From Streptomyces sp. L2 (lineage in GTDB: Bacteria; Actinomycetota; Actinomycetes; Streptomycetales; Streptomycetaceae), in assembly GCF_004124325.1 (NCBI RefSeq), contig NZ_QBDT01000001.1:3782001-3846000 (forward strand): 64,000 bases of DNA. Reading direction: 5' to 3'. The translations under genes and the position numbers were made by a program. This document shows positions 6,541-29,105 of the stretch, one piece after another; within the stretch, counting starts at the first letter, position 1, and each line of letters starts with the position of its first letter. The notes below the pieces were generated by a model, which was not told where the DNA came from, made no database searches, and saw only the letters and a list, made by a program, of their open reading frames with translations.

Positions 6541-8032
6541 CATGGCCTGGCCCCCGCACCACCTCAAGCCCGCCCTCGACGCCATGCACACCTGGGACAC
6601 CTGGTGGTCCGGCGACCCCGACCGCCTCGAAGTCCTCTACGGCGGCAGCACCGGCGGCGGCCCGGACCCGAAGCGGCTGCAGTACTCCGGCGGAGTCGTC
6701 GGCCGCCTGGCCCGCTGGTGGTGGGGCACCCCCACCGCCCCGGGTGAGCGGCGCACCAAGCTGCACGTGCCGATCGCCGGTGACCTGTGCGGCGGGTCGG
6801 CCGATCTGCTGTTCTCCGAGCCGCCGAAGCTCACCGTCGAAGACGACACCACGCAGGCCCGGCTGGACGAACTCGCCGATGACGGGATGCTCGCCACCCT
6901 GCAGACCGCCGCCGAGGTCGGCGCCGCACTGGGCGGGGTGTACCTCCGCCCGGTCTACGACGTCGACCTGGCGGACCGGCCATGGCTCGACGCCGTCCAC
7001 GCCGACCGCGGCATCCCGGAGTTCCAGTGGGGGCGGCTGTCCGCAGTCACGTTCTGGCGGGTGGTCGGCGAGCAGGACGGGCAGGTGTGGCGACACCTCG
7101 AGCGGCACGAGCCGGGCGTCATCCTGCACGGCCTGTACCAGGGCACGAAGGACAAGCTCGGCCGGCCGGTTCCGCTCGAGGACCAGCCGGCCACCGCCGC
7201 CTTCGCGGCTCTGGTCAACACGGATGGGGCGATCCCGACCGGCTATGAGGGCCTGGACGTGGTGTACATCCCCAACCAGTCCTCCCGCAGGTGGCGCTGC
7301 AAGCCCAAGCTGCAGGAGCTGGGTCGGTCTGACCTTGACGGTGTCGAGCCGCTCATGGATGCCCTCGACGAGACCTACTCCAGCTGGATGCGGGACCTCC
7401 GTCTTGGCAAGGGCCGCATCGTGGTCCCGGACTCCTACCTCCAGTCGAACGGGCCCGGGCGGGGATCCTCCTGGAACCCCGACCAGGAGGCGTTCGCCGG
7501 GCTGAACCACCTGAACCGCGGCGGTGACATGACGCTGACGGTGGCCCAGTTCCAGGTCCGGGTGAGCGAGCACCAGCAGACCGCCGAAGACCTGGTCAAC
7601 CAGATCCTCCGCAGCGCCGGCTACTCGGGGCAGACGTTCGGGCTCGGTGGGGACGCTGCGGCGACCGCGACCGAGGTGGTCGCTCGGGAGCGGCGGAGCA
7701 TGACGACCCGCGGCCGGAAGATTCTGCGGTGGCGTCCGGCGCTCGGCCAGGTCATCGAGGCGCTCCTCACAGTCGACCAGCAGGTGTTCGGCGGTGGGCT
7801 GAAACCGCAGCGGCCGACGATCGAGTTTGAGGACTCGGTGCAGGAGGATCCGCTGTCTCTGGCGAACACGGTCAACGTGCTCGCGCAGGCGACGGCCGCG
7901 TCGGTGGACACGAAGGTCCGCTGGGTGCACCCCGAGTGGAACGACGACCAGGTGCAGGCTGAGGTGGGCCGGATCATGCGTGAGAACGGGATGTCCGTCC
8001 CCGACCCGATGCAGACTGGCGAGCTGCCGTGA
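6521..8032 (+). CDS. Phage portal protein
   Basis: 503 residues from GTG 6521 (an ATG at 6541 is the alternative). Portal proteins form the dodecameric ring at the capsid vertex through which DNA enters and leaves. Support comes from length, position between TerL and a MuF-like protein, the Trp-rich N-terminus with a conserved WW pair, and a C-terminal acidic segment typical of SPP1-type portals. The centre contains a region with many Asp/Glu that would face the channel. No single catalytic motif is expected. Confidence is high from synteny. Confidence 0.88.
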   Translation: MPLPTDDMAWPPHHLKPALDAMHTWDTWWSGDPDRLEVLYGGSTGGGPDPKRLQYSGGVVGRLARWWWGTPTAPGERRTKLHVPIAGDLCGGSADLLFSEPPKLTVEDDTTQARLDELADDGMLATLQTAAEVGAALGGVYLRPVYDVDLADRPWLDAVHADRGIPEFQWGRLSAVTFWRVVGEQDGQVWRHLERHEPGVILHGLYQGTKDKLGRPVPLEDQPATAAFAALVNTDGAIPTGYEGLDVVYIPNQSSRRWRCKPKLQELGRSDLDGVEPLMDALDETYSSWMRDLRLGKGRIVVPDSYLQSNGPGRGSSWNPDQEAFAGLNHLNRGGDMTLTVAQFQVRVSEHQQTAEDLVNQILRSAGYSGQTFGLGGDAAATATEVVARERRSMTTRGRKILRWRPALGQVIEALLTVDQQVFGGGLKPQRPTIEFEDSVQEDPLSLANTVNVLAQATAASVDTKVRWVHPEWNDDQVQAEVGRIMRENGMSVPDPMQTGELP

Positions 8033-8424
8033 CCGGGCTCGGCATCCTGCTCGCGCACCTGGCCGGGGACTACCTCATCCAGTCGGACTGGATGGCGAAC
8101 GAGAAGACGAAGCGCTGGTGGCCAGCTTGGGCACATGCGATCACGTACGGCCTGCCGTACGTGCTGGTCACCCATGCGCCCCTCGCGCTGGCCGTCATCG
8201 TCGTCACGCATGCCGTGATCGACCGATACCGGCTGGCCCGGCACATCGTCTGGGTGAAGAACCTGCTCGCCCCGAAGGTGTATCGGCACCCCTGGGCGGA
8301 GTGCTCGGCGACGGGCTACCACCGGAGCCGTCCGCCGTGGATGACCGTCTGGCTGATGATCATTGCGGACAATACGGTCCACCTGGCGATCAATGCCGCT
8401 GTGGTGGTGTGGCTCGGGAGGTGA
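8029..8424 (+). CDS. DUF3307-like membrane protein
   Basis: 131 residues, GTG start overlapping the portal stop by 4 bp. The N-terminal pattern LLAHLAGDYLIQSDWMA is characteristic of DUF3307 proteins. Hydrophobic segments occur near residues 1-15, 40-62 and 103-127. A membrane protein is unexpected between the portal and the MuF-like minor head protein, so it may be a moron (for example acting on the host envelope or in superinfection exclusion). Function is not known for the family. Confidence 0.75.
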   Translation: MTGLGILLAHLAGDYLIQSDWMANEKTKRWWPAWAHAITYGLPYVLVTHAPLALAVIVVTHAVIDRYRLARHIVWVKNLLAPKVYRHPWAECSATGYHRSRPPWMTVWLMIIADNTVHLAINAAVVVWLGR

Positions 8425-10757: not shown

Positions 10758-11636
10758 GTGGCCAACTCCTTCCTCACCCCTGACCTGATCGCCACGAGGG
10801 CGCTCGCCACGCTGTACGACACAACGGTCATGGCGCAGCTCGTGCACCGCGACTACGACGCCGACTTCCGTGGCCGGCAGGGCGACACCGTCACCGTCCG
10901 CAAGCCGGCCGTGTTCACGGCGGCGGAGTTCAACCGCGGCACCGGCATCGTGTCGCAGAACGCCGTCGAGGGCAGCGTGGACGTCACGCTGAACCACTTC
11001 TCCGACGTCTCCTTCACGGTGACGACCGAGCAGCTCAACCTGGAGATCGAGGACTTCGGTACCCAGCTCCTCGACCCGGCGATGGAGGCGATTGCCCAGA
11101 AGATCGACACCGACCTCCTTGCGCTGCGGGACGACATCGTGCAGAGCACGCAGGACGTGGACAGCCCGCACGCGACGACGGCACCCGAAGTGCTGATCGA
11201 CGCGGGCATCGTCCTGAACCAGGCCAAGGTTCCTGCGGCGGAGCGGCGAGCCGTTATCGGCCCGGCGACGAACGGCCGTTGGCTGGACTCCAACGTCCTC
11301 AAGCAGGTCAACGAATCTGGCAGCACCGACGGCCTGCGCGAGGCGTATGTCGGGCGGCGCCTGTTCGGGTTCGACCCGTACTGGACGCAGCATGTCGAGT
11401 CCCCGGAAGAGGGCGTCGCCTTCCACCGCACGGCTTTCGCGCTGGTGATGCGGCCGCTGGAGGTGCCGCCGGGTGCCCAGGATGCCGTGATCATGGATTA
11501 CAAGGGGTTCAGCCTCCGCGTGGTCTACGACTACGACATCAAGTACAAGCAGACCGTCGTCTCGGTCGACTGCCTGTACGGCACGAAGACCCTCGACGCG
11601 AACCGGGCCGTCATCCTGGCCGACGCCGGTTCCTGA
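10758..11636 (+). CDS. Phage major capsid protein (P22 coat-like)
   Basis: 292 residues, GTG start after GTTAGGAGG. The pattern of an N-terminal helix, then a DTVTVRKP segment near residue 42 and a beta-rich centre is that of the P22 coat-like family within the HK97 fold. It lies right after the scaffold gene, where the major capsid gene is expected. The product would build the icosahedral shell. Downstream, instead of a connector gene, lies the sugar-modification cassette. Confidence 0.88.
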   Translation: MANSFLTPDLIATRALATLYDTTVMAQLVHRDYDADFRGRQGDTVTVRKPAVFTAAEFNRGTGIVSQNAVEGSVDVTLNHFSDVSFTVTTEQLNLEIEDFGTQLLDPAMEAIAQKIDTDLLALRDDIVQSTQDVDSPHATTAPEVLIDAGIVLNQAKVPAAERRAVIGPATNGRWLDSNVLKQVNESGSTDGLREAYVGRRLFGFDPYWTQHVESPEEGVAFHRTAFALVMRPLEVPPGAQDAVIMDYKGFSLRVVYDYDIKYKQTVVSVDCLYGTKTLDANRAVILADAGS

Positions 11637-11679: not shown

Positions 11680-12606
11680 ATGCGCTGTGTCGTGCTCGGC
11701 GCTCCCCGGCCGCTGCACCTGAACCGGTGGAAGGACTGCCTCACCGAAGGCGGGACCGAACTCGGCTGGGACATGCTGCACCTGCCCGCCCGGGGCATCC
11801 CCACCGACCAGGTCATCAGCGCCTGCCGGGGCGCCGACATGCTGATCTGGGCCCGCACCCACGGCCACAACCCGGCCGGCGACATCCCCGGCATGCTGTG
11901 TGCCATCGAGGACGCGGGCACCGCCACGGTCGCCCTGCACCTGGACCTGTACTGGGGGATCCGCCGGCGCGAGCAGCAGATCGGGATGGACCCGTGGTGG
12001 TCGTGCCAGTGGGTGTTCACCGCCGACGGCGGCCACCAGGCCGAGTTCGCCGCCCGTGGCGTCAACCATTGGTGGCTGCCGCCGCCGCTGGGCCGCCGCT
12101 GGCTCGGCCGCTCGGCCCCGGACCGGCGTCGCTTCCCCGGCCGGACGGTGTTCGTGGGCGGCTACTCGCCGGGCATCCACGGCCAGCACCGCGCGCAGCT
12201 GCTCACCTGGGCGCGCCGCCGGTACGCGTACAGCTTCCAGCAGTACGGCCGGGGCCGCCCGGTGTGGGGGAAGGATCTCGGCACCCTGTACGCCTCCGCC
12301 GAGGTCGTCCTCGGCGACTCGGCGCCGGCCGCCCGCTATTGGTCGGACCGGATGGTGTGCACGATGGGCCGCGGCGGACTCCTCGCGCACCCGCGCACGG
12401 AGGGCATGACGGACCTCGGCTTCACCGATGAGGTGATGCTGACCTACGAGCGGGGCGACTTCGCGGGGCTCGGCGAGCGCATCGACTCACTGACCGCGGC
12501 TGACCGGCGGGCGATGACGGATGCGGCGATCACCCTGATCGGGGAGCGGCATCTGTGGGAGCACCGGCTGAAGGACATCGCGGAGGTGGTGTTCGGGTGC
12601 GGGTGA
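11680..12606 (+). CDS. Glycosyltransferase-like protein (CgeB-type GT-B)
   Basis: 308 residues; ATG 11680 is preceded by AAAGGGGGG. The N-terminal half looks like a Rossmann domain (VVLGAPRP at residues 4-11) and the C-terminal half has the GT-B pattern of a second Rossmann domain, with a VFVGGYSPG segment near 158-166 and a Glu-containing VVLGDSAPAA segment near 215. The C-terminus resembles spore-maturation CgeB-type glycosyltransferases. It is the first of four sugar genes placed between the capsid and connector genes. Donor and target are unknown; the virion is the likely target by position. Confidence 0.7.
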   Translation: MRCVVLGAPRPLHLNRWKDCLTEGGTELGWDMLHLPARGIPTDQVISACRGADMLIWARTHGHNPAGDIPGMLCAIEDAGTATVALHLDLYWGIRRREQQIGMDPWWSCQWVFTADGGHQAEFAARGVNHWWLPPPLGRRWLGRSAPDRRRFPGRTVFVGGYSPGIHGQHRAQLLTWARRRYAYSFQQYGRGRPVWGKDLGTLYASAEVVLGDSAPAARYWSDRMVCTMGRGGLLAHPRTEGMTDLGFTDEVMLTYERGDFAGLGERIDSLTAADRRAMTDAAITLIGERHLWEHRLKDIAEVVFGCG

Positions 12607-13268
12607 TCATCGCGTGCGCCGGGTCGCAGACGAAGTGGGGCAACCACCTCGGTGTGCCCTCCCACCTGGTGCCGCTGCGCGCGCATCACGGGGTGCCGCT
12701 GCTGTACCGGACGGTCGGCCAGGCCCGCGAACTCACCGGCGACGTGCACCTGACCTGCCCGGCCGGCGACGTCCGCTACAAGCTGCCCGGCGTGACCGTG
12801 CACGAGCAGGACGGTGGCGCGCCCTCGGAGTACGCGGCCACCCGCGACCTGTGGAACCCGCGCGGCCGAACGGTGCTGCTGCTCGGCGACGTCTACTTCA
12901 CCGACCGGGCGATGGACACGATCGGCGGTTTCCGCCCGCAGACCTACCGTGTGTTCGGACGCCCCTACGGCAGCCGGATCACCGGCACCCCGTATGGGGA
13001 GATTTTCGCCGCCTCGTGGTGGCCCGCCCAGCATGCCCGCATGGACAAGCGGCTCGCCCACGTCCACGAGCTACGCGCCGCGGGGATCGTGACCCGGCCG
13101 CCGGGCTGGATGCTGCTCCGGTCCTGGCAGCAGACCCGCATTGATCAGCACATCGTGACCGGTGATTGGTTCACCCCGATCAACGACCTCACGGACGACT
13201 TCGACACGCCGCGCGACTTCGCCCGGCACCCAGTAACCCGGGAGGCGCCCACGTGGCCAACGTCATGA
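12597..13268 (+). CDS. Nucleotidyltransferase-like protein
   Basis: 223 residues from a GTG overlapping the previous gene by 10 bp. The N-terminus (VRVIIACAGSQTKWG, then VPSHLVPL and GVPLLYRTV) resembles sugar-phosphate nucleotidyltransferases, where a Gly-rich loop binds NTP. A GDVYF segment near residue 98 could supply the metal-binding acid. The C-terminal third is not recognisable. It could make a nucleotide-sugar donor for the adjacent glycosyltransferases. The loop is atypical, lacking the usual Gly-x-Gly-x-Arg, so the activity is an inference. Confidence 0.6.
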   Translation: MRVIIACAGSQTKWGNHLGVPSHLVPLRAHHGVPLLYRTVGQARELTGDVHLTCPAGDVRYKLPGVTVHEQDGGAPSEYAATRDLWNPRGRTVLLLGDVYFTDRAMDTIGGFRPQTYRVFGRPYGSRITGTPYGEIFAASWWPAQHARMDKRLAHVHELRAAGIVTRPPGWMLLRSWQQTRIDQHIVTGDWFTPINDLTDDFDTPRDFARHPVTREAPTWPTS

Positions 13269-13888
13269 GGGCCTTGCCCGCCCTGCTCCAGCAGCTCGGC
13301 TGGACGCCGCAGCACCTCGTCCACGTCGGCGCCCACGAGGGCCAAGAGATGCCGTTCTACCGGGAGGCCGGCATCCCTCGGATCACGCTCGTCGAGCCGA
13401 TCCCGGCACTGGCCGCACGCCTGCACCGCGAGCATCCGCAGGCGATCGTCCACGAGTGCGCGTGCGCGCGCACGCCCGGGCGTGCGCGCCTGCACGTGAT
13501 GGCCCGCACGAACCTGTCGACGCTCGCCGCGCCGCAGCGCGGTGACCGCCTGGCCGACACGATCGACGTGGAGGTGCGCCGCCTCGACGACCTCGCCCCC
13601 GACGCTGACGCCGCGGTCATCGACGCGCAGGGCCGGGAACTGGACGTGCTCTCAGCAGCCCCGTGGGACAGCCTGCGCATGGTGATCGTGGAGACGTGCA
13701 CGGTCGACGACGCGACGATGGCCGCACCCTACGGCGAGACCTCCGCCGTGATGGCCGAGCGTGGCTTCTTCGAGGTAGACCGCTGGGTCCGGGACTACGA
13801 CTGGCTGAACCGCTGGGCCCGCGGTCCCGGTCAGGCGCCGCGCGGCGGAGAGGTCCGCGACGTCGTGTTCTACCGGCAGCCGTCGTGA
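13253..13888 (+). CDS. FkbM-family methyltransferase
   Basis: 211 residues from a GTG with GGGAGG upstream. The first SAM-binding motif is HVGAHEGQE (about residues 23-31) and the acidic end of the second strand is LVEPIPAL (about 45-52). The later FkbM hallmark, Asp-x-Gln-Gly followed by VL, is in IDAQGRELDVL (about 123-133). Family members put methyl groups on hydroxyls of sugars and polyketides. In this cassette it would most simply methylate a sugar added by the neighbouring transferases. Confidence 0.8.
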   Translation: MANVMRALPALLQQLGWTPQHLVHVGAHEGQEMPFYREAGIPRITLVEPIPALAARLHREHPQAIVHECACARTPGRARLHVMARTNLSTLAAPQRGDRLADTIDVEVRRLDDLAPDADAAVIDAQGRELDVLSAAPWDSLRMVIVETCTVDDATMAAPYGETSAVMAERGFFEVDRWVRDYDWLNRWARGPGQAPRGGEVRDVVFYRQPS

Positions 13889-14859
13889 ACGTCGCCGTCC
13901 TGGTGCCGTGGCGGCCGGACGGCGGCCCCCGGCAGACGGTGTGGGCGTGGATGCGCGGCCAGTGGGCTGCCGCGCACCCGGGCTGGGAGATCGTCACCGG
14001 GGCATGCCCTGACGGCCCGTGGTCGAAGGGCGCAGCGATCGCGGACGCGTTCCGCCAGACGGACGCCGACGTCCTGGTCGTCGCCGACGCGGACGTGTGG
14101 TGCATCGGTACTCCGTTCGCCGTCGACGCTGTGGCCTCCCGACGGGCCCGGTGGGCGATGCCCCACCAGCTCGTCCGCCGCCTCACCGCCGACGCCACCG
14201 AGGCTGTCCTCCGGGGCGCGCCCATGACCGGCCAGCCCACCGTCGAAACCCACCCGGGCGTCCCCGGCGGCGGCATCGTCGTCCTTGCCCGCCAGGTTCT
14301 CGAGGGCGTGCCCCTCGATCCGGCGTTCACCGGCTGGGGGCAGGAAGACCAGGCGTGGGCGCTGGCCCTGACGACGCTCGCCGGGCCGATGTGGCGCGGC
14401 ACCTCAGACCTGTTCCACCTGTGGCATCCGCCGGCCCCGCGCCGTACCCGTGCGGTCGGCTCACGCGAGTCGCTGGCCCGTTACCGCCGATACCAGCAGG
14501 CCTCCGGCCAGGCCGCCCAGATGCGGCAACTGGTGGCCGAGTTCTGCCCGACACCCTTGAAGGGGACCCCGATGGCCTACCGCTACCGCAACGACAACAC
14601 CGGCGACGAGGTGGAGTACGAGCACCCCAACGCCCGGCTGGAGATGCTGCCGAACTGGCAGCGGATCCCCGTCCCGGCGGCCGACCCGGAGCCCATGACG
14701 CCGCCGGCCCCGAAGGAGCCGGGCGAGCGGCCGGCGCAGCAGGACCCGAAGGCCGCCTGGGTGGAGTACGCCACCAGCCGCGCGCAGGACTCCGGAGAGG
14801 TCGCTGAGATCGCCACCCTGACCAAGGCCGAGCTGATCGACCGCTACGGCAAGGAGTAG
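13885..14859 (+). CDS. Glycosyltransferase (GT-A) joined in frame to a small phage head protein
   Basis: 324 residues, GTG start overlapping the methyltransferase stop. Residues 1-230 are a GT-A domain: an AVLVPWRP start, a DXD-like ADADVW near residue 68 and the galactosyltransferase-type motif GWGQED near 151-156. After about residue 229 the sequence changes to a separate 95-residue module, beginning MAYRYRNDN, with a Pro/Glu linker and a C-terminal KAELIDRYG motif common in small actinophage head genes. A strong AAGGGGACC site stands just before that internal ATG, so the second part is probably also made alone. Confidence 0.75.
   Translation: MNVAVLVPWRPDGGPRQTVWAWMRGQWAAAHPGWEIVTGACPDGPWSKGAAIADAFRQTDADVLVVADADVWCIGTPFAVDAVASRRARWAMPHQLVRRLTADATEAVLRGAPMTGQPTVETHPGVPGGGIVVLARQVLEGVPLDPAFTGWGQEDQAWALALTTLAGPMWRGTSDLFHLWHPPAPRRTRAVGSRESLARYRRYQQASGQAAQMRQLVAEFCPTPLKGTPMAYRYRNDNTGDEVEYEHPNARLEMLPNWQRIPVPAADPEPMTPPAPKEPGERPAQQDPKAAWVEYATSRAQDSGEVAEIATLTKAELIDRYGKE
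14572..14859 (+). CDS. Possible separately translated head protein inside the glycosyltransferase ORF
   Basis: An in-frame ATG preceded by AAGGGGACC, 4 nt upstream, would give a 95-residue protein. Its length, acidic linker and end (LTKAELIDRYGKE) fit the small head-to-tail or capsid-accessory proteins usually encoded right after the capsid gene. The frame is shared with the glycosyltransferase and has no stop between, so both a fusion and a free form are possible. Confidence 0.5.
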   Translation: MAYRYRNDNTGDEVEYEHPNARLEMLPNWQRIPVPAADPEPMTPPAPKEPGERPAQQDPKAAWVEYATSRAQDSGEVAEIATLTKAELIDRYGKE

Positions 14860-14865
14860 CCAGCT

Positions 14866-15285
14866 GTGAGCAGGGTCTACGCCACCGTCGACGACTATCA
14901 GACCTTCACCGGCGAGACCCCGCCCGACGGCACGGACCGGCGGCTGTCCACAGCGTCTCGCATGCTCGACCGGACGATCCTCCGCTTCTGCCGCTACGAC
15001 GTCGACGACACCGGCCTGCCCACCAACACCGTGGTGGCGGCCGCGTTCCGCGACGCGGTATGCGCGCAGGTCGCATGGTGGGGGAACGTCGGTGACCCGT
15101 CCGGCGCGGACGCGGTCGGCTGGGGCACCCTGGCGATCGGCTCCGTCAACCTCGGCCGCAACGCGACCGCCGTGTCCGGGGACGACGCACCGGCCCGCCA
15201 GCTCGCCCCCGAGGCCGCTGACGCCCTACAGTCCCCGGACCTGACGCCGGACATCTTCCGCCTCGGCGCGGTGACGTCATGCTGA
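14866..15285 (+). CDS. Head-tail connector (gp6-like adaptor)
   Basis: 139 residues, GTG start 7 bp after the previous stop. It has the mostly helical pattern with conserved aromatic residues (YATVDDYQTF near residues 5-14; AAAFRDAVCAQVAWW near 59-73) seen in adaptors that dock onto the portal ring. Position after the capsid region and before the stopper supports this. It overlaps the next gene by 7 bp. Confidence 0.75.
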   Translation: MSRVYATVDDYQTFTGETPPDGTDRRLSTASRMLDRTILRFCRYDVDDTGLPTNTVVAAAFRDAVCAQVAWWGNVGDPSGADAVGWGTLAIGSVNLGRNATAVSGDDAPARQLAPEAADALQSPDLTPDIFRLGAVTSC

Positions 15286-28787: not shown

Positions 28788-29032
28788 CGCCGCCCGCGGG
28801 CCGGATCTCCCCATCCGGGGTCCCGCAGGTGACGACGAGCCTCTGTCTGGCGCGCGTGGGGAGCCGCGCCGTCCCCGTCTTTCGCTAGGCACTCTAAAGC
28901 GCTCAACGTTTTGTTCAAGTGCCCAGGACCGCCGCCACCAAACCGTGATCATCTGGCGTTGTGGACTCTATGCGGACTCAGGGCGTGAGCACGCCCCCCG
29001 AGGGAGTACCTCGGAGGGCGTCTGACCTGCAG

Positions 29033-29080
29033 TGGAGCCTAGGGGAGTCGAACCCCTGACATCTGCCATGCAAAGACAGC
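29033..29080. other. Probable right attachment site (3' half of tRNA-Ala)
   Basis: Phage and mobile-element genes run up to the 3' end of this tRNA and ordinary chromosomal genes begin on its other side. Integration into tRNA 3' ends restores the tRNA on one side. The matching direct repeat is expected left of this window. No copy is visible inside it. Confidence 0.5.
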
Positions 29081-29105
29081 GCTCTACCAACTGAGCTAAG
29101 GCCCC
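29033..29105 (-). tRNA. tRNA-Ala (anticodon TGC)
   Basis: On the minus strand the sequence folds as a standard cloverleaf: acceptor GGGGCCT / AGGCTCC, D-arm with AGCTCAGTTGGTAGAGC, anticodon stem around loop CTTTGCATG giving TGC, and T-arm with GGTTCGA. The discriminator base is A and the CCA end is not encoded. The 3' end points left, toward the prophage, as expected for an integration target. Confidence 0.95.

Follow-up and report, generated by a model that had tools for sequence, protein, structure and literature searches.

A Streptomyces prophage carries, between its major capsid gene and the head-tail genes that follow, a cassette of four overlapping genes which, judged from sequence, probably makes and tailors a glycan on the virion. 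Two features of this locus are new here: the last gene of the cassette encodes a glycosyltransferase fused to a head protein, and an 11-residue Pro/Thr-rich loop of the capsid protein is missing, among 75 capsids, only in viruses that carry the cassette (6/8 carriers).

Gene content of the cassette

The window is the whole stretch of DNA that was analysed, 64,000 nucleotides from Streptomyces sp. L2 (contig NZ_QBDT01000001.1, positions 3,782,001 to 3,846,000), and coordinates refer to it (Table 1). Paired attachment repeats give the prophage a size of about 51 kb. An initial annotation, made from the letters alone, had placed four sugar genes between capsid and head-tail genes, overlapping on the late-operon strand, and the map of open reading frames bears this out on both counts: g1 to g4 are four overlapping plus-strand frames, preceded by a capsid gene that matches PF11651 and followed by head-tail adaptor and connector genes that match phrog_541 and phrog_3881. 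The whole g4 frame spans 13885-14859 (+ strand), and the inserted part of the cassette, excluding the fused head-protein portion, spans 11680-14571. The cassette is under purifying selection (dN/dS 0.18-0.36 for the four enzyme parts, window against four relatives), and its proteins contain no hydrophobic stretch of the membrane-anchor type. Gene maps came from a simple caller of open reading frames that missed or shortened some genes, for example the GT-B of loci L016 and L041, which a profile search over all frames recovered.

Table 1. Features of the cassette and its surroundings (positions in the window)
Feature	Position	Strand	Evidence
Major capsid protein, P22-like coat family, 292 aa	10758..11636	+	PF11651 3.2e-44; phrog_283 4.5e-68
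Capsid-gene junction where the 11-aa Pro/Thr-rich loop is absent	11405..11406	.	Position from window sequence against cassette-free relatives
g1: GT-B type glycosyltransferase (Glyco_trans_1_2), 308 aa	11680..12606	+	PF13524 2.4e-9; phrog_28745 2.4e-117; alignment A3
g2: MobA/sugar nucleotidyltransferase-like protein, 223 aa	12597..13268	+	phrog_33187; family Pfam and PDB profile matches; AF2 model
g3: FkbM-family methyltransferase, 211 aa	13253..13888	+	PF05050 3.2e-11; TIGR01444 3e-11; phrog_36045 9.2e-76
g4, N-terminal part: GT-A glycosyltransferase, DAD and GWGQED motifs	13885..14571	+	phrog_1721 1.1e-14; alignment A7; Firecracker gp35/Che8 gp109 homology
g4, C-terminal part: small head protein ("conn"), in-frame fusion	14572..14859	+	phrog_12035/phrog_2322; standalone homologues behind capsid gene in relatives
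Head-tail adaptor (short form), first gene 3′ of the cassette	14866..15285	+	phrog_541 5.5e-13
Right attachment repeat, 3′ end of tRNA-Ala	29032..29074	.	Second copy about 22.2 kb before the window

The calls of a CgeB-like glycosyltransferase and an FkbM methyltransferase both hold at curated cut-offs. g1 scores 37.7 bits against PF13524 (cut-off 25), a family linked to CgeB, and g3 scores 44.1 bits against PF05050 (cut-off 22.7) and 44.0 bits against TIGR01444 (cut-off 37.7). The GT-B proteins show general conservation only, across the 14 sequences of alignment A3, and their family profile has no PDB match at 0.1. The family membership of g3 makes sugar O-methylation its probable role; matches of the FkbM profile to TAL-effector repeats in the PDB were set aside, as they cover only about 28 residues of repeats.

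The description of the second gene as nucleotidyltransferase-like applies to its family more than to the window protein itself. Searched from its second codon, g2 has no Pfam match and matches phrog_33187, of unknown function, at 4.7e-88. Among 29 members of the g2 family, 15 match the MobA-like NTP transferase domain (PF12804, NTP_transf_3; E-values up to 0.1, best 3.2e-9), and the window protein is not one of them; the family profile matches sugar-1-phosphate nucleotidylyltransferases in the PDB (best 1e-4), and the AF2 model of the NT family is confident (pLDDT 94.2). Sequence similarity to the MobA-like and sugar nucleotidyltransferases is thus found for the family and not for the window protein alone. 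The canonical signature of these enzymes combines a PK lysine with a GxGxR arginine; the window protein, with PSH and AGSQTKW at these positions, departs from it, and some relatives have PKH or PKQ. Because a serine stands where the PK lysine would be, g2 may not be a true nucleotidyltransferase, and the earlier proposal that it synthesizes the sugar donor is not borne out, since the signature is altered. A relationship between g2 and the GT-A found no support from hhalign (probability 0.3%).

A glycosyltransferase fused to a head protein

Reading the fourth gene as a GT-A glycosyltransferase was correct but incomplete. Its N-terminal part matches phrog_1721, annotated as galactosyl transferase, and the DAD and WGxED columns are invariant in alignment A7 (13 sequences, one partial), so that active-site motifs, expected by the initial annotation to be conserved, are intact in this enzyme and altered in g2 of the window. 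However, the last 95 codons of g4 (residues 230-324) encode a distinct small head protein in the same frame as the GT-A. Cassette-free relatives have this protein as a gene of its own behind the capsid gene, so the cassette was inserted between the two, and the insertion joined the GT-A to the head protein. An internal ATG at 14572 follows a Shine-Dalgarno (SD)-like sequence, and the small head protein is possibly also made alone from this start. All 10 loci inspected, which count as 7 when only distinct capsid proteins are considered, have both the fusion and the internal Met codon with its SD-like sequence.

The junction is occupied in several ways among the 79 annotated viral contigs matched by capsid. 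Six have the cassette; in 33 the small head gene lies immediately 3′ of the capsid gene, in 27 one open reading frame lies between them and in two, of the Hiyaa type, two do, while 11 could not be resolved. At this site Hiyaa retains no more than a shortened FkbM gene.

Co-occurrence and spread of the cassette genes

In different phages, the cassette genes lie close to one another and to structural genes. When 45 loci of the NT family were clustered at 90% identity (25 clusters, one representative each), a GT-B gene lay within 1.5 kb in 19 clusters, an FkbM gene in 17 and a GT-A gene in 11; three clusters had no partner gene nearby, two of them being contigs of bacterial MAGs. Distance matrices of the trio genes correlate at r 0.76-0.86 (16 loci; 0/2000 permutations reach each value). 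The capsid genes found near members of the family belong to three Pfam families (P22_CoatProtein, Phage_capsid and SU10_MCP), with three genes intervening in one locus (L039); in the P22-coat carriers the set immediately follows the capsid gene. This distribution indicates that a second putative enzyme set for virion glycosylation recurs near capsid genes of different families. Tailoring enzymes appear to be exchanged between loci, with methyl- or sulfotransferase-like members: a sulfotransferase-like protein is encoded directly 3′ of NT in L028 (PF13469 4.1e-5, slightly below its curated cut-off) and in L048 (PF13469 at only 0.095; 41% identity to the L028 protein over 216 residues), and L048 additionally has a rhamnosyl O-methyltransferase/CmcI-like gene (PF04989 1.5e-33).

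The initial annotation asked whether the four genes travel together beside capsid genes and held that a lack of conserved grouping in relatives would speak against it; the grouping exists, but the neighbour is not always a capsid gene. Counterparts of g1-g3 occur together in nine named Streptomyces phages (Yara, Rooney, Dryad, phiRKBJ001 and five others); by coordinates the three are neighbours in 9/9, always in the order glycosyltransferase-nucleotidyltransferase-FkbM, and they are 45-58% identical to those of the window. Unlike the window set, the trio lies directly behind a very long tailspike-like gene (annotated at 1206-1443 residues) in the five of the nine phages that were opened, with no capsid-annotated gene within 9 kb on each side, and no GT-A was found beside it. 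A literature search in one wording found, for these phages, only a genome announcement (PMC8852317).

A capsid loop missing in carriers

All 67 capsids for which no cassette was detected have the loop. The loop-less capsids are those of the Streptomyces carriers and belong to two capsid lineages; the two metagenomic carriers retain the loop. Neither the trees nor the loop flanks support the idea that the loop was lost when the cassette and the 3′ end of the capsid gene were transferred together. A tree of the N-terminal part of the capsid places each loop-less lineage with non-carriers (1.0 and 0.999). In a tree of the C-terminal part (78 columns), L063 and L064 again join non-carriers (0.78-0.89), and the four carriers of the window lineage form a separate group (0.90). 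At the loop site, each of the loop-less lineages has retained flanks of its own.

Proposed function and alternatives

In the reading we favor, g2 would help to supply or handle an activated sugar, g1 and g4 would transfer the sugar to a structural protein and lengthen the chain there, the likeliest acceptor being the capsid protein, whose gene adjoins the cassette, and g3 would O-methylate the attached sugar. The fused head protein may hold the GT-A at the assembling head. It is worth considering a more elaborate version, which we think rather unlikely as a whole: the GT-A, permanently fused and either travelling with the assembling head or forming part of it, would decorate capsid subunits in place, the internal start would provide plain head protein, and the glycan would take over a surface role of the 11-residue loop, which would explain why the loop has been lost in Streptomyces carriers and in no non-carrier. 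The fusion suggests a concrete and testable way in which such enzymes could locate their target. The missing loop poses a structural question, whether the sugar replaces an exposed loop.

The sugar might instead be placed on a tail protein (tail tube, fibre or spike), which we consider possible but somewhat doubtful. The tailspike-like neighbour of the trio in the named phages favors such an acceptor, as does a fibre gene downstream, behind a 150-aa gene, in 5/7 distinct P22-coat carriers readable that far, and glycosylation of the mycobacteriophage tail tube is reported (PMC12363180 and PMC11600133, in excerpt). However, all four genes are present in the window and in S. tendae (L024), where the fibre and the 150-aa protein are missing, so that a fibre protein as obligatory acceptor is out, and the position of the set directly behind the capsid gene in P22-coat carriers also points away from the tail. 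We do not claim a fresh deletion of the fibre gene in the window; short adaptors without the fibre are common in cassette-free relatives.

Some prophages encode glycosyltransferases that modify the host surface, excluding superinfecting phages or altering adsorption, and this function would be a precedent for the cassette. We consider it improbable here, given genes that overlap one another inside a structural operon, proteins without a membrane segment, one enzyme fused to a head protein, and the presence of the genes in isolated phages too. In some phages glycosyltransferases modify DNA; hypermodification of the phage DNA with sugar is the least probable of these readings, as the set sits among head genes with no base-modifying enzyme noticed adjoining it, albeit without a dedicated search, and the relatives of the GT-A come from phages of kinds with glycosylated proteins (PMC12363180, in excerpt). 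Passing cargo with no role in the virion would fit the re-use of the site seen in Hiyaa and the rarity of g2 relatives (3/392 sampled Streptomyces genomes, that of the window included), but purifying selection, the same grouping in many phages and the conserved fusion make it very improbable.

Comparison with known virion glycosylation systems

Virion glycosylation has been reported for a few mycobacteriophages (PMC12363180, PMC11600133 and other citing papers, in excerpt), including that of the Che8 capsid (Freeman 2023, through citing papers such as PMC12363180). The GT-A part of g4 is homologous to Firecracker gp35 (4e-26) and Che8 gp109 (1e-21; both E-values for a nine-protein set), Firecracker representing cluster O, which includes Corndog. 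The transferases named as essential for capsid glycosylation in the excerpted text of PMC12363180 are others, Che8 gp110 and Corndog gp38; Che8 gp110 and Firecracker gp36, the counterpart of Corndog gp38 by gene order, have no match in the window cassette. The mycobacteriophage parallel drawn in the initial annotation is thereby strengthened for the GT-A, without extending to the essential-named enzymes. None of the seven Che8 and Firecracker proteins compared is homologous to g1, g2 or g3.

In Che8, gp108-gp110 share with the window the gp109 homology; they differ in that none of the three is homologous to g1, g2 or g3, and their genes lie towards the right end of the genome, where the 11.5 kb examined contains no annotated head gene. 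The initial annotation named no described capsid-linked set of four such genes in a Streptomyces prophage; excerpts of PMC4351075 describe a comparable set in cluster O (Corndog and Firecracker), a head-operon methyltransferase with three transferases, proposed in 2015 to put methyl and glycan groups on the capsid; the four Corndog enzymes were present in infected cells and, according to these excerpts, not identified in highly purified virions. Both sets consist of four genes, one methyltransferase and three of transferase type, within head genes. However, that of cluster O lies between the portal and protease genes (PMC4351075, in excerpt) and that of the window behind the capsid gene; of Firecracker gp33-36, gp35 alone has a homologue here, the GT-A, and no homology to g1-g3 is seen for the methyltransferase or the remaining two transferases; and Firecracker gp35 is a separate, unfused 230-aa gene, whereas the GT-A of the window is fused to a head protein. 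The cassette is a variant of an already described kind, the head-operon set of methyltransferase and transferases known, from the excerpted text of PMC4351075, in cluster O.

Results

A sugar-modification cassette had been proposed between the capsid and head-tail adaptor genes of the prophage, and this is borne out: four overlapping plus-strand genes, g1–g4, occupy that position, behind a capsid protein of the P22 coat family (PF11651, 3.2e-44). The identities initially assigned to g1 (GT-B glycosyltransferase) and g3 (FkbM methyltransferase) likewise hold on their Pfam matches, and g1–g3 each match a family of the phage library at 9.2e-76 or better. Measured against four relatives, dN/dS is 0.18–0.36 for the four enzyme parts and 0.28–0.60 for the head part of g4. 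A 43-bp repeat shared by the 3′ end of tRNA-Ala (29032) and a site ~22.2 kb before the window gives a prophage length of ~51 kb; a putative integrase gene (435 aa), recognized by eye only, lies just inside the left end.

Features of the cassette and the integration site, in window positions
Feature	Position	Strand	Assignment
g1	11680-12606	+	PF13524 Glyco_trans_1_2, 2.4e-9; phrog_28745
g2	12597-13268	+	phrog_33187; no Pfam match of its own
g3	13253-13888	+	PF05050 FkbM methyltransferase domain, 3.2e-11; phrog_36045
g4	13885-14859	+	phrog_1721, galactosyl transferase family, 1.1e-14
tRNA-Ala integration site	29032-29105		43-bp repeat

The reading of g2 as nucleotidyltransferase-like (NT) stands at the level of its family, in which 15 of 29 members match a MobA-like NTP transferase (E up to 0.1; best 3.2e-9) and whose profile picks out PDB entries (best 1e-4) for sugar-1-phosphate nucleotidylyltransferases, GlmU and related cytidylyltransferases. 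The window protein itself lacks a Pfam match. The PK lysine of the superfamily signature is Ser there and Lys in some relatives, so that nucleotidyl transfer by g2 is not certain. The AlphaFold2 model of g2 is of high confidence, with a mean pLDDT of 94.2.

The fourth gene is a GT-A glycosyltransferase, as first annotated, over only part of its length. Residues 1 to ~229 form the GT-A, which retains its DAD and GWGQED motifs (in the 13-member family, five match Glycos_transf_2 and three Glyco_transf_7C, E up to 0.1), but residues 230–324 make up a small head protein (phrog_12035, phrog_2322) that in relatives without the cassette is a separate gene behind the capsid gene, mostly of ~90–145 codons. 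All ten fused loci examined, representing seven distinct capsid proteins (the window; L012; L013 and L027; L014 and L026; L023; L024, from S. tendae; L033 and L034; L-numbers denote related loci), have no stop between the two parts and retain a Met codon, preceded by an SD-like sequence, at the former head-gene start; L016, where g4 runs past the contig end, lies outside this count. Selection for a translation start inside g4 is suggested rather than proven, because the SD-like bases double as codons of conserved Leu-Glu/Lys-Gly residues. The GT-A is a gene of its own in L039, L040 and L045/L046. A second type of fusion within the same set, at L053 (9698–11461), places NT-like and GT-A-like domains in one open frame, and in L123 the capsid gene is closely followed, near this same insertion site, by a lone GT-A-like gene (profile match; ORF of 267 aa) without the remaining cassette.

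A check had been suggested of whether the four genes travel together beside capsid genes; the grouping is conserved across phages, but its place is not always that one. Nine of 50,697 phage records searched bear g1, and all nine have g2 and g3 adjacent in the same order; four more (Hiyaa twice, Spocter and Keanu) hold a distant g3 relative (~32% identity). In each of the five records opened among the nine, this trio comes after a tailspike-like gene of 1206–1443 residues, annotated as a tailspike only in phiRKBJ001 (placed in cluster BN in PMC8852317), and no gene annotated as capsid was found in the stretch around it. Across 25 NT clusters (45 loci; search distance for partners 1.5 kb), NT has GT-B nearby in 19, FkbM in 17, GT-A in 11, the P22-type capsid family of the window in six, a tailspike in five and no partner in three. 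Across 16 selected loci with a complete trio, the pairwise distances of its three genes are correlated. The window family adjoins P22-type capsids, L040 and L051 are near Phage_capsid (PF05065) proteins, and in L039 an SU10-type capsid precedes the set by three genes; no capsid was recognized in L048. Directly after g2, L028 and L048 encode sulfotransferase-like proteins that are 41% identical (PF13469, 4.1e-5 and 0.095, neither reaching the curated cut-off), and L048 additionally has a CmcI/rhamnosyl O-methyltransferase-like gene (1.5e-33). Such swapping of sugar-tailoring enzymes fits glycan synthesis. NT relatives also occur in bacterial MAG contigs, L031 (9788–11125) and L030 (10001–10603) (Gammaproteobacteria with two tandem copies, Kiritimatiellia), with no phage partner genes found near them.

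Empty sites were sought in the best 80 of 111 relatives. The cassette is present in six of the 79 capsid-matched viral contigs annotated; the head gene directly follows the capsid gene in 33, one ORF intervenes in 27 and two (the Hiyaa type) in 2, and 11 are cut off or leave the arrangement unclear. The 80th, L016, likewise carries the cassette, and carriers fall into three separate capsid lineages. In Streptomyces phage Hiyaa (L006), only a shortened FkbM relative of 161 aa (7748–8233) is left between the capsid and head genes, a state that we read as decay of the cassette; two small unknown genes adjoin it. Relatives of g2 occur in three of 392 Streptomyces genomes, including the window's own (E up to 0.001). 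A looser search finds a capsid match in 39 Streptomyces genomes, five of them close relatives (E below 1e-90), and all three g2-bearing genomes fall within these five. Between the head gene and the adaptor, L012 (12735–14528), L013 (12755–13726) and L006 (9539–12871) encode a fibre-like protein, absent from the window, that weakly resembles DUF1349 in its front part and contains a variable number of long repeats; where it is present, the adaptor has an extra N-terminal domain of ~90 aa. The minor capsid gene of L014 (4751–6976), as called, has 741 codons, which is double the length usually seen.

An 11-residue Pro/Thr-rich capsid loop is missing from six of 75 distinct capsid proteins, all six from carriers. 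It is retained in two metagenomic carriers, L016 and L033, and in 67 capsids without a detected g2 relative, although the cassette may have gone undetected in some of the latter, since in ten of their contigs the sequence past the capsid gene is shorter than 3.5 kb (in four of these, shorter than 600 bases). The loop is lost in two capsid lineages, and because each preserves its own flanking residues, two separate losses are likely. The chance that two random losses would both hit carrier-only tree branches is roughly 0.7%, assuming independence.

Discussion

The cassette is real, conserved and mobile, and its most likely role is virion glycosylation with methyl tailoring. Two features would surprise a specialist: the fusion of a glycosyltransferase to a head protein, and the capsid loop. 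In the boldest reading, the fusion would tether the GT-A to the assembling head, or build it in, and a glycan would replace the loop.

It is informative to compare this arrangement with the systems of mycobacteriophages. PMC4351075 describes an O-methyltransferase and three transferases of cluster O phages, encoded between the portal and protease genes, and proposes that the capsid receives methyl and glycan groups. The study detected the four enzymes in infected cells without identifying them in virions, which speaks against a simple transfer of the tethered or built-in GT-A to cluster O. Later papers citing Freeman 2023 (PMC12363180, PMC11256854 and PMC11600133) report that capsid or tail tube proteins are glycosylated in Che8, Corndog and other phages, and in the first of them the essential transferases are given as gp110 of Che8 and gp38 of Corndog. 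Our GT-A profile matches Firecracker gp35 (4e-26) and Che8 gp109 (1e-21), both E-values being computed for a nine-protein set; the GT-B, NT and FkbM profiles match none of seven Firecracker and Che8 proteins, and no cassette profile matches Che8 gp110 or Firecracker gp36, the counterpart of Corndog gp38 by gene order. The link to the tested systems therefore runs through a companion transferase. PMC13313380 infers something similar for Rhodococcus phages, with like caution, and, judged by titles and the start of abstracts, we found no Streptomyces or FkbM case of virion glycosylation. The kind of system is already described in mycobacteriophages, and the Streptomyces cassette is a new variant within it.
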